Shown: piece after piece, positions 12,849 to 60,014 of the stretch
Layout: the number at the start of each line of letters is the position of its first letter
Position numbering within the stretch: the stretch's first letter is position 1
The notes under the pieces: model-generated
The model's input: the letters and a program-made list of their open reading frames with translations, nothing else
What the model was told of the DNA's origin: nothing
Database searches by the model: none
Position numbers and translations under genes: made by a program
Assembly: GCF_018383585.1 (NCBI RefSeq)
Contig: NZ_JAHAMK010000018.1
Location: 1 to 64,000 of the forward strand
DNA length: 64,000 nt
DNA from: Microvirga sp. 3-52
GTDB lineage: Bacteria; Pseudomonadota; Alphaproteobacteria; Rhizobiales; Beijerinckiaceae
Reading direction: 5' to 3'

Positions 12849-12896
12849 AATACTCAGGCTTGAAAGATGCCCCTGGCCCCGGTAAGCAAGTAACGG

Positions 12897-13053
12897 ACGG
12901 TGCCCCGGCAACGGGGTGAAAAGGGAATGCGGTGAGACGCCGCGGCTGCCCCCGCAACTGTAAGCGGCGAGCCTTCGCTCCAAATGCCACTGGGTCATGA
13001 CGCCCGGGAAGGCGGCGGCGAAAAGCATCGACCCGCGAGCCAGGAGACCTGCC
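12897..13053 (+). promoter_or_regulatory. Cobalamin riboswitch
   Basis: All conserved blocks are present in order on the plus strand: GGTGCC at the 5' end, GGGTGAAAAGGGAA, the CCCCCGCAACTGTAAGCGG core, AAATGCCACTGG, CGGGAAGGCGGCG, and the B12 box GCCAGGAGACCTGCC at 13039-13053. It lies 137 bp before hupE. Binding of adenosylcobalamin should reduce expression of hupE, DUF1636, cobW and cobN, and probably the cob genes coupled to cobN. Confidence 0.96.
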
Positions 13054-13170
13054 GTCAGCCTTTGCTTCTATCGGGTCTGTCGGACGGGGTGTGCCGACGG
13101 TGACCGTAGTCGAATGACTCTTCGTCGTTCGGTTCCGTCCGTGGAAGCGCAACAGACTCAAGATCCAGAG

Positions 13171-14272: not shown

Positions 14273-15310
14273 ATGAGCGATCTCGCAAAGATCCCCTGCA
14301 CCATCGTCACCGGATTCCTCGGCGCCGGCAAAACAACCCTGGTGCGCCACCTCCTGGAGAATGCAGGCGGACGCCGCCTCGCCGTTCTCGTCAACGAGTT
14401 CGGCGATCTCGGCTTCGACGGCTCCTTCATCGAAGGCTGCGGCATCGAGGGCTGCACCCAGGAAGACATCGTCGAGCTCCCTAACGGCTGTCTGTGCTGC
14501 ACGGTGGCCGACGATTTCGTTCCGGCCCTGAACACGCTGCTCAACCGGCCCAACCCGCCCGAGCACATCTTGATCGAGACCTCGGGCCTCGCCCTGCCGA
14601 AGCCGCTGGTGCGCGCCTTCAACTGGCCGGACATTCGCTCCCGCGTCACGGTGGATGGCGTGATCGCCGTGGTCGACGGACCCGCCGTCGCCTCCGGCGC
14701 TTTCGCGCAAGATCCGGAAGCGCTCGAAGCGCAGCGCGCAACCGATTCCTCCATCGACCATGAAAACCCGCTTGAGGAAGTGTTCGAGGACCAGCTCCTC
14801 TGCGCCGATCTCATCATCCTCAACAAGACCGACCAGATGGCGGCCGGCGACAGATCAAAGGTTCTCGCGGAGATCAACGAGCACCTGCCCCGCGCCGTGA
14901 AGGTCATCGAGACCACTCACGGCAAGGTTGATCCGACCGTTCTGCTCGGCCTCGGGGCTGCGGCGGAGGCCGATCTCGAATCCCGCCCCTCGCACCACGA
15001 GACTGCCGAAGATCATGATCACGACGATTTCGACAGCGTCGCGATTCGGGTCGCGCCCGTTGCCACGCCGGAGGCTCTTGTCGCCCGCGTCGAGCGTGCG
15101 GCGGAAGCGGCCGGCGTGCTGCGAATCAAGGGCTTCGCACCCGTCGACGGCAAGCCCATGCGCCTTGTGGTCCAGGGCGTCGGCCAGCGCGTCGCCCATC
15201 ATTTCGACCGGCCGTGGAAGGCCGGCGAGGCCCGCGACGGACGCATGGTGGTGATCGGTCTGAAAGGGTTCGACATCAAGGCCGTCGAGGCCGCTTTGCG
15301 CAACGGATGA
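14273..15310 (+). CDS. cobW: CobW, GTP-dependent metal chaperone
   Basis: COG0523-family GTPase, 345 aa, thought to deliver Co(II) for corrin insertion. Walker A GFLGAGKTTLVRHLL, the metal site NGCLCC, guanine motif LNKTD, a histidine/aspartate stretch HHETAEDHDHDD near residues 240-255, and the CobW C-terminal domain. It lies one base before cobN, which encodes the large subunit of the chelatase that would receive the metal. Confidence 0.95.
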   Translation: MSDLAKIPCTIVTGFLGAGKTTLVRHLLENAGGRRLAVLVNEFGDLGFDGSFIEGCGIEGCTQEDIVELPNGCLCCTVADDFVPALNTLLNRPNPPEHILIETSGLALPKPLVRAFNWPDIRSRVTVDGVIAVVDGPAVASGAFAQDPEALEAQRATDSSIDHENPLEEVFEDQLLCADLIILNKTDQMAAGDRSKVLAEINEHLPRAVKVIETTHGKVDPTVLLGLGAAAEADLESRPSHHETAEDHDHDDFDSVAIRVAPVATPEALVARVERAAEAAGVLRIKGFAPVDGKPMRLVVQGVGQRVAHHFDRPWKAGEARDGRMVVIGLKGFDIKAVEAALRNG

Positions 15311-15311
15311 C

Positions 15312-18300
15312 ATGCACCTCCTTCCGGTCACAGCGATTTCCCTCGACGAGGGCGGGGAGGCCACAGACCTCCAGCAACCGCCGGGGGATATCGTCGTCCT
15401 CTCCTTCGCGGACAGTGACCTCGGCGCGCTGGCGGCCGCCCATCGGCTCGCGGCAGGAGGAGCGTCCCTCCGCCTCGCCTCGCTTCGCCGCCTGCGCCAT
15501 CCTCTCTCCGTCGACCTTTACATCGAGAAGACCGCCGCAAAGGCACGCTTCGTCCTCGTGCGCTGCCTCGGCGGCCTAGAATACTGGCGCTATGGCATCG
15601 AGCACCTCACCCAGGCCTGCCGCGCCCATGGGGTGAAGCTAGCGGTTCTCCCCGGCGACGACCGGCCCGATCCGCGCCTGTCGGCCTATGCCACCGTGGC
15701 GCAGCCGCTCTGCGACGAACTGGAAGCCTATTTCCAGGGCGGGGGCGTAAACAATATGAGCCGACTGCTTGCGCGCATCGGCGTTGAGATCGGTGAAGTG
15801 GATCAGGCGATCCAGCCGCCGCGTGCAGTTCCGCGCGCTTTCGTGTGGGTACCTGGAAGACCACCCATAGACGGGTCTTCCAGCAACGGCCCTCATTCTG
15901 GGAGGCTGGTTCACCGAGGGCCAGCACCTTCCTCACGTCATCACCGGCCTTGTGCCGGTGGTCCCGATCCGAAAAGCGTTGCGCCACCAACAATCGGGAT
16001 GGCCAGGACAAGCCCGGCCATGACGGCGAGAGAAGCGCATGATGTGCTTGTCACGGAGGATAGGGTCCGCGGGGTTGAAGCCCGCATCGTTACAGAACCC
16101 GAGGCCGTCCTTGCCGGCCATTCCAACGAGCGCCCCCTCGCCTATCTCCTCGTCTATCGCTCCGCCGTTCTCTCAGGCGACACGCAGGCTGTCGAAGCCT
16201 TGGCGGCGGCTCTCGCCGAGCGAAGCATCGACTCGCTCGTGCTCGCGGTGTCGAGCCTGAAGGACCCGGAAGCGGTCGCCGTCGTTCGGCGCGCGATCTG
16301 GACGCGCCGCCCCGACATCATCGTCACGACCACGGCCTTCTCATCGCGCGACGATGAAAGCTTCGTGCTCGATGAAGCCGATTGCCCGATCCTGCAGGCA
16401 ATTCCAGTCGGGAGTTCACGGGAAGCCTGGGAGGCGTCTCCGCGGGGTCTGTCCGCCGCCGATCTCGCCATGCAGATCGCCCTGCCCGAATTCGACGGGC
16501 GCGTCGCCGCTGGCCCCATCTCGTTCAAGTCCGAGGAGCCTGCCGACAATGCGCTTGCCTTCTCGCGCCGGGTGCAGGCACCGGATGCCACCGGCATCGA
16601 TGCCGTTGCGGATATGGCCGCCGCATGGATAGGTCTTGCCCGCGCATCGCGTCACGAGCGGCGGCTCGCCCTGGTTCTCTCCGATTATCCGGCACGCGGC
16701 GGACGCGCTGGCTTTGCGGTCGGGCTCGATACTCCGGCCAGTGCCTGCGCCATCCTCGATGTTCTCAAGGAAGCCGGTTACGCGGCCGAACGGGATTTCA
16801 CGACCTCCGACCTGATGCCGCGTCTCACCGAAGGCCGGACTTCGATCAAGGTCTCGCTATCCAGATATCGCACGTGGCTCGACACGCTGCCGGCAGAATG
16901 GCGGAACATCATCGATGGGCGCTGGGGCCGACCCGAGAACGATCCGACGTTCGAAGCGGGAGCCTTCCGCTTCCACGCGATCCGCGCCGGAAATATTCTG
17001 GTCGCGCTTCAACCCGATCGCGGCCACGGCCTCGACCGCAAGGGCTCTTACCACGATCCGGAATGCCCACCGAGCCACGGCTATCTCGCCTTCTATTTCG
17101 GCCTGCGCGTTTTGGAGAACATCCATGCGCTCGTGCATCTCGGCACCCATGGCACCACCGAATGGCTGCCCGGCAAGGCGGTGGCGCTGTCCTCCACCTG
17201 CTGGCCCCGTCTCGCCATCGGCGCCGTTCCGGTGATCTATCCGTTCATCGTCGACGATCCGGGTGAAGCCGCGCCTGCCAAGCGCCGCATCGGTGCGGTG
17301 ACGATCGGCCATCTCACGCCGCAGACGGCGGAGGCCGGCCTGCACGGCGAGGCGGCGGCGTTGCGTGACCTGGTCGAGGAATTCTCGTCCGCCCAGGTGC
17401 TTCATCCCGGTCGGGCGGAACTTGTCGCAAGCGAGATCCTGGGGCGTGCCAGGGCAAGCGGGCTCGCATCGGCCTGCGGCGTCGATGACGGCATGCCCAT
17501 GGATGAGGCGTTGACGCGCCTGGACGCGCATCTCTGCGATCTCGGCGAGGTCACGATCCGCGACGGACTCCACGTCTTCGGCAGCGCTCCTGCCAGGCTG
17601 GAGGCCTGCGCCACCGGGGAGCGTGAGGGATTGCTGAGGGCGCTGGATGGCCGCTTCGTCCGGCCCGGGCCATCCGGGTCGCCGTCGCGCGGTCAGATCA
17701 ACGTGCTGCCCACCGGACGCAACCTGGCGACCCTCGATCCGCGCTCCATCCCCACCCGCGCCGCCACGGAACTCGGCTGGCGTGCGGCCGCGGAGGTGGT
17801 GCGTCGTCACCTGCAGGACGAAGGCGACTGGCCGCGTCGGATCGTGATGGACCTGTGGGCCTCCCCGACGCTGCGCTCCGGCGGCGAGGACATCGCCCAC
17901 GCCCTTGCGCTCATGGGCGTGCGCCCGACCTGGGACCATGTCTCCACCCGCGTGACCGGCTTTGAGATCGTCCCGCAGCCGCTCCTCGACCGACCGCGCG
18001 CAGACGTGACCCTTCGCGTCTCCGGCGCGTTCCGCGATACGTTCCCGGACCAGATCGCGCTGCTCGATCAGGCGGCCCGCACGGTCGCAGCGCTCAACGA
18101 GGACGACGAGTGGAACGAACTCGCCGCCGCGCGCCGGCGCGGAGAAGCGCTGTCGCGCGTGTTCGGCTCCGCGCCGGGCACCTTTGGTGCGGGCGTGTCG
18201 GCCCAGGCGCTCGATGGCGCGTGGGTGACGAAAAACGATCTCGGACGTACCTATCTCGACGGCACCTCCCATGCTTTCGGAGCCGCGGGCGAAGCCCGCG

Positions 18301-59487: not shown

Positions 59488-59601
59488 GCAACTGAGGAAA
59501 ATGCGCTCTGTAGCGCGGCGCTCCACAGGTTCGGGATGGCCGGCACGACGCCGGATGAGCCGCAGCCTTTCGCTCGTCCCTCCGCGTCGTCACTTCCTCC
59601 A

Positions 59602-59691
59602 CGTCATCACCGGGCTTGTCCCGGTGACCCCGATAGCGAGAGGCGCCGCAGTCTTCCGATCGGGATGGCCGGGTCAAGCCCGGCCATGACG
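59602..59691 (+). repeat. 90-bp REP-like element, copy A
   Basis: CGTCAT/ATGACG ends, hairpins CACCGGG/CCCGGTG and GGCCGGG/CCCGGCC, and CCCGAT/ATCGGG pairing. Same length and layout as the cobN copy. Confidence 0.88.
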
Positions 59692-59778
59692 GGAGAGGGT
59701 GTGACCCAGGACAGTGGCATACCCCGCTTCGGTCATCACCGTTCCCGCCCGGTCATCACCGGCCCTCGGATCCTCCCC

Positions 59779-59868
59779 CGTCATCACCGGCCTTGTGCCG
59801 GTGAACCCGACGCGAAGAGCACAGCGCCTAATAGGGTCGGGATGGCCGGCACAAGGCCGGCCATGACG
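59779..59868 (+). repeat. 90-bp REP-like element, copy B
   Basis: CGTCAT/ATGACG ends, hairpins CACCGGC/GCCGGTG and GGCCGGC/GCCGGCC, and CCCGAC/GTCGGG pairing. Compared with copy A, paired positions change together, keeping every stem. Confidence 0.88.
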
Positions 59869-60014
59869 AAGGAGCGTATGACCAGGGACAGCGCTACTCT
59901 CGGAGGGACGCACCATGGAGAAGGGATCCATCCGCACGCTTCATGTGGCGTAGATCCCTCTATCCTCGCAGATGCCGGCCGGCGATGACGCTGAACGGGC
60001 ACCCGACCGGCGCC

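Follow-up and report, generated by a model that had tools for sequence, protein, structure and literature searches.

Comparison of cobN loci from Microvirga and its relatives suggests that one linker of CobN, the large subunit of cobaltochelatase, is probably a permissive segment that has been recurrently colonised by palindromic repeats, which are tolerated there when they are open and in phase with the gene. The linker follows the first CobN domain (residues about 182-273 in the protein studied here) and would be permissive and probably unstructured, perhaps exposed at the protein surface. In the mechanism that we propose, several families of dispersed palindromic repeats, most of whose copies are intergenic, would insert around the genome, and nearly all copies falling in genes would be purged by selection. 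As open, in-phase copies would be tolerated at the CobN linker, presumably neutrally for the enzyme, it could have been colonised several times, in Microvirga by the repeats named here A, B, and C, and elsewhere by other palindromes. The encoded peptide would then drift under no visible constraint on its amino acids, and new elements would be added beside or inside earlier ones. The preliminary description of a protein-invading palindrome in CobN was right, and its comparison with the Rickettsia palindromic elements (RPE) fits, but the insertion site that the loop forms is a larger one, and several families have used it.

The window is the whole 64,000-nucleotide stretch of Microvirga sp. 3-52 DNA analysed here; its features are collected in the table below. 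The encoded protein scored 1546.6 bits against the profile of the CobN family NF008973 (curated cut-off, 1235), and the gene lies among other cob genes, downstream of a cobalamin riboswitch. A match to the suhB/mmgR small RNA (RF00519, 63.2 bits) was also seen at 1878-1950 of the window, on the minus strand.

Table. Coordinates of the CobN linker, its palindromic insert and associated features in the window
Feature	Position	Strand	Remarks
Cobalamin riboswitch, upstream of the cob genes	12881..13070	+	RF00174, 140.3 bits
cobW, directly upstream of cobN	14273..15310	+	TIGR02475, 563.2 bits (cut-off, 332.1)
cobN, cobaltochelatase large subunit, 1179 aa	15312..18851	+	NCBIfam NF008973; frame open throughout
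Extended CobN loop, 276 nt, native linker included	15855..16130	+	42-51 nt in nine short-loop members of the genus
Element A, by anatomy a head-to-head dimer of two unlike CGTC-type REPs	15936..16025	+	In frame, codons 209-238 of cobN
Left REP arm of A	15936..15962	+	CGTC tag, 9-bp stem (one G-T pair), 5-nt loop CTTGT; by eye
Right REP arm of A	15999..16025	-	CGTC tag, 9-bp stem with one mismatch, 5-nt loop; by eye
Intergenic copy of A	59602..59691	+	Aligned with the cobN copy
Intergenic copy of A	59779..59868	+	Aligned with the cobN copy

The 90-bp palindrome reported earlier within cobN was confirmed: it is read in the cobN frame from codon 209 onward and adds 30 residues and no stop. Its likeness to two intergenic copies at 59.6-59.9 kb was likewise borne out by an end-to-end alignment of the three (mean column identity of 88% over 91 columns). 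The cobN copy folds at -44 kcal/mol (z score, -4.3), and none of 200 shuffled sequences was equally stable. A default inverted-repeat scan of the cobN locus returned no pairs; the arms of A are imperfect and were detected by a model and by folding. An arm pattern matched three times in the window (0.00 expected) and 374 times in the whole genome of 5.19 Mb, where the reversed pattern, used as a control, gave no match. A model built on 31 genomic seed copies recovered 144 nonredundant copies in 1.23 Mb of this genome, 123 of them near full length with both arms covered. The element starts with CGTCAT and finishes with ATGACG, with the outer C in 86 and the outer G in 86 of the 94 copies whose inner ends are exact; the outer flanks are C-rich and G-rich. 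An open frame of 150 codons at 59536-59988 of the window runs over the two intergenic copies, and it is probably spurious, since its codon use is not coding-like.

By its anatomy, and under the definitions available to us from PMC3733652, A can be classed as a head-to-head heterodimer of CGTC-type REPs. That class is described there as having 8- to 9-bp stems that begin with A-T pairs, loops of 4 to 5 nt, and a 3-nt tail that is mostly CCA, and it takes in RPE-4 and RPE-6 of R. conorii. The consensus of the 31 seeds, read by eye, has the left arm ATCACCGGC-CTTGT-GCCGGTGAT and a right arm built likewise, with 9-bp stems beginning with A-T pairs, 5-nt loops, CGTC tags pointing outward at the outer ends, and arms that are unlike one another. 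Very high copy number, some intragenic copies, and frequent occurrence in alphaproteobacteria are further features that the REPs of that paper have in common with A. A has a tail of 3 nt as well, but its consensus reads CCC and not the CCA of most, though not all, members of the class.

In the part of the genome surveyed, copies of A inside genes are very rare. The preliminary description had proposed a search of the whole genome for other coding sequences with the element in frame; our survey covered 2.02 Mb (39% of the genome, on contigs drawn from those listed with A matches), and of its 207 copies of A, the one in cobN was the only one with in-frame coding-like sequence on both sides. The survey also took in 10 copies of B, none of which was placed in this way. 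Of the 122 other full-length copies of A, 73 can be read through in the cobN frame without a stop, and 58 of 123 copies have a length divisible by three; frame alone therefore does not explain the rarity of A within genes. In a smaller survey (144 copies in 1.23 Mb), a 42-nt fragment of 20 bits at C55:138436-138477 was also flanked by coding-like sequence on both sides; it is absent from the list of the 207-copy survey and was rejected as a second intragenic copy. Another copy (G000:C44:63753-63841) lies near the 3' end of an open frame of 494 codons that is hardly coding-like downstream, and it might form a C-terminal extension.

The suggestion that the insert lies in a loop agrees with the short linkers, of about 13 to 16 residues, found at the matching place in two solved CobN sequences and with the low confidence of residues 183-284, which are among the least confident of an AlphaFold model. 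That model is weak as a whole (mean pLDDT, 62.7; 373 of 1,179 residues below 50), and other stretches score equally low; its low confidence fits a disordered loop without being proof of one. A structure comparison matched CobN, ChlH, and HmuS chains and yielded nothing on the loop.

Defined as the stretch between PRAFxW and RPLAY, the CobN loop measures 276 nt in this genome (L011 among the loci compared) and 51 nt in most short-loop relatives. A clean gap of 30 residues in relatives, which the preliminary description had predicted, was not found: relative to the short-loop proteins the extra stretch amounts to about 75 codons, of which A accounts for 30. None of the loci read has the loop of this genome with A alone missing. 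When the flanks of A were searched alone, no significant second copy appeared in 1.23 Mb of this genome; in a search with the whole loop over the same 1.23 Mb, 15 of 246 matches extended more than 12 nt past A. We considered that A might be nested here in a decayed copy of B; the B model had no match in L011, L016, or L018 up to an E value of 1, the likeness of the flanks was seen by eye only, and this reading was set aside. L016 and L018 are the two other loci that carry A in the same orientation. The nearest locus to L011 on the cobN tree is L012 (support of 100/100), which carries B, a different palindrome, in its loop. The tree counts two changes for A, as if it had arrived separately in L011 and in L016/L018, but this is weakened by the finding that the three loops can be aligned with no gap over the entire 276 nt, nonrepeat flanks included; loss or recombination is as likely. 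An assembly error, which would have undone the preliminary claim, is unlikely, since long, open, repeat-bearing loops occur in many separate assemblies.

CobN was matched in 39 of 48 Microvirga genomes among the matches listed, in some only by repeats. Loops were read for 29 Microvirga loci and for Chelatococcus composti; these counts leave out L029 and L048 (genes broken by a contig end), those loci among L041-L057 that duplicate G-numbered genomes, and the distant relatives L050-L056, L058, and L059. The loop has 14 to 17 residues in nine of the Microvirga loci and 36 to 136 in the other 20; over all 30 loci, it spans 42-51 nt in nine and 108-408 nt in 21. Three Microvirga loci outside the set of 29 (L163, L164, and L173) also have short loops. 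Model and pattern searches identified a repeat in every one of the 20 extended Microvirga loops: A in four (inverted in L028, and in the orientation of this genome in L011, L016, and L018), B in 14 (complete in 12, half in two), and C or part of it in seven, the sets overlapping. The short C pattern also matched 2 of 1,780 shuffled loops, and the 34-nt C pattern had no match in G001, the genome to which L030 belongs, so that L030 owes its C label to the short pattern. The reading frame of B varies with the species, giving PHPEE in some and DLILRS in others; together with the presence of A in both orientations, this points to several insertion events, and the insert is thus not the product of a single 30-residue event. 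The longest Microvirga loop read, that of L028 (the cobN of G014; 136 residues), contains the inverted A, a weak remnant of B (E value, 0.003), and, by eye, a further inverted repeat of the CCTCTCCC type.

A, B, and C are dispersed repeats. A is found in 48 of 48 Microvirga genomes, with numbers of arm matches that range from 1 (G004 and G018) up to 1,065 (G026); B in 21 of the 21 genomes tried, where the control gave no match save one in G033; and C in 33 of 48. The Microvirga genomes with short loops have fewer A arms (9 versus 20 genomes; P = 0.004, kinship ignored). Loop states do not track the cobN tree (the nine states take 13 changes, against a minimum of 8); recombination may thus have spread some loops, and fewer insertions would then be needed.

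In the wider family, a CobN match was found in 204 of 298 genomes, and 59 of 60 loci (all but L211), several of them from genomes already seen, were read. Those of other genera were picked by best score or because the match was split, leaving out many single-match genomes of g12, g14, and g42, so the counts that follow are not rates. Loops are short in the loci read from genera g9 and g21 and long in those from g11 (L202 and L204 among them), g12, g14, g16, g19, and g42, which were fetched largely for split matches; most of these long loops fold as long hairpins. Among the loci read, a fourth repeat, D, occurs in 8 of 13 from g12 and in the single one from g14, and a B-like match in 5 of 5 from g42; all 4 loci from g16 carry a further repeat. 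D is dispersed in 13 of 17 genomes and the g16 repeat in 4 of 4 g16 genomes and 0 of 7 others. Within g12, loop length rises with the number of D arms in the genome (Spearman coefficient of 0.96 over 12 genomes, leaving out G129; partly picked by loops, kinship ignored). The cobN of Chelatococcus composti (L044/L188), whose loop holds C, stands among Microvirga genes on the trees and was therefore probably transferred.

Pooled over five of 12 pairs (L015/L019, L016/L018, L026/L027, L020/L021, and L012/L013), differences at the three codon positions are even in the insert (58/75/74) and heavy at the third position in the flanks (141/98/496); one pair outside the pool, L026/L032, has an excess at third positions in its insert (7/7/18). 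That most changes in the flanking codons fall at third positions argues against the reading, which we consider highly improbable, that this cobN is a nonfunctional or surplus gene in which an insert is of no consequence. No point in its favor was found; among the matches listed, the genome has one full-length CobN and the CobN loci have no internal stop, and both the riboswitch and the neighboring cob genes are there. Copies of A in cobN are not slower than synonymous sites in any of three pairs, nor is the insert of L014/L017, whereas copies of B diverge 2- to 6-fold more slowly than synonymous sites in seven of eight pairs (0.039-0.175 versus 0.24-0.35; P < 0.001 in each of the seven, which share species). 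The slow divergence of B is not predicted by pure neutrality after one insertion. It could reflect selection for the hairpin as an RNA or DNA structure within cobN (acting on mRNA stability, translation pacing, or recombination), an explanation that we regard as improbable. In subfamily 1 of B, 20 of 504 paired positions are substituted versus 30 of 114 unpaired ones, and few shuffles had as few broken pairs for B1 (1/500), A (7/500), and D (1/500). Against this, broken pairs are at chance level for B2 (219/500) and the g42 repeat (152/500), A in cobN diverges at about the synonymous rate, 9 of 29 Microvirga loci have no insert at all, and a random set of 25 intergenic copies of A has the same contrast between arms and loop (158 of 1,670 paired versus 162 of 549 unpaired) and also fewer broken pairs (0/500 as low). 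The test for compensatory change, being mixed and positive in its intergenic control, is thus no proof of function. A related idea, to which we give little weight, is that lineages have in turn taken up some palindrome as a useful hairpin, with the structure being kept and not the sequence or the peptide.

Slow divergence of B would also be seen if its cobN copies were kept young by gene conversion from dispersed copies or by their reinsertion. This is compatible with a permissive linker, and we consider it a possibility, if a fairly doubtful one. Own-genome copies were compared in 8 of 12 genomes (4 to 12 copies each). The cobN copy of G006 shares 97.1% identity with an intergenic copy from the same genome (best other cobN copy, 90.3%), and the own-genome copy is also closer in G016 (88.5 versus 86.3%) and G039 (93.1 versus 91.1%). 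However, in G045 and G027 the cobN copy resembles another cobN copy more than it does the intergenic copies of its genome, and the cobN copies of G009, G019, and G036 are nearest one another (93 to 96%), which makes common descent probable for these three. The loop might instead be a target at the DNA level, for instance if palindromes attract palindromes, with tolerance by the protein being secondary. Adjacent or nested elements in L014, L015, L017, L019, L023, and L028 favor such a target, but insertion points and frames vary by lineage and, by eye, the short loops have no motif in common across genera; we judge this account unlikely. A permissive linker that is recurrently colonised is the explanation that we prefer.

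Protein-invading palindromes are already known, and PMC3733652, as far as its text was available, describes unlike REPs at about the same site in one case only, that of recB in two Xanthomonas species, and its main text contains no word that begins with cob. Like an RPE, A is a palindrome in frame within a protein gene, and the likeness is meant as one of behavior and not as family membership. The two differ in that nearly half of the 44 RPE copies are genic according to the accessible part of PMC10969869, versus 1 of the 207 copies of A surveyed, and in that several families have struck a single loop in several genera here. Intragenic MITEs such as the ERIC and RU elements are likewise small repeats fused to reading frames (PMC2759123 and PMC10969869), but the portions of those papers available to us describe no protein loop that is invaded across genera. 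Titles and the openings of abstracts of the papers listed on palindromes in Microvirga, palindromes in cobN, and REPs within coding sequences contained no case of this kind. What appears new is the scale, with five dispersed repeat patterns (some of which may be related) in one CobN loop of six genera, as well as the short-loop controls and the near absence of A from other genes over the 39% of the genome that was surveyed. In-frame palindromes have so far been mostly scattered cases in many genes; here several events, caused by unlike repeat families, can be read from a single enzyme loop across six genera, one of them probably by way of gene transfer. With several events in one loop, and with short-loop relatives as controls, the question of whether protein-invading repeats are tolerated or kept becomes testable. 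The loop also offers a natural site at which CobN accepts roughly 20 to 130 extra residues.

At the level of the order, a CobN match was found in 251 of 297 genomes. Of 25 high-scoring loci that were read, 24 have 35 to 56 residues between the anchors, and the remaining one is that of the present genome. One locus from another family of the order, L363 (G449:C2:632000-634000), has a hairpin-forming stretch of 237 nt (LTPAKAGVHTEF...WIPASAGM) in the same CobN loop.
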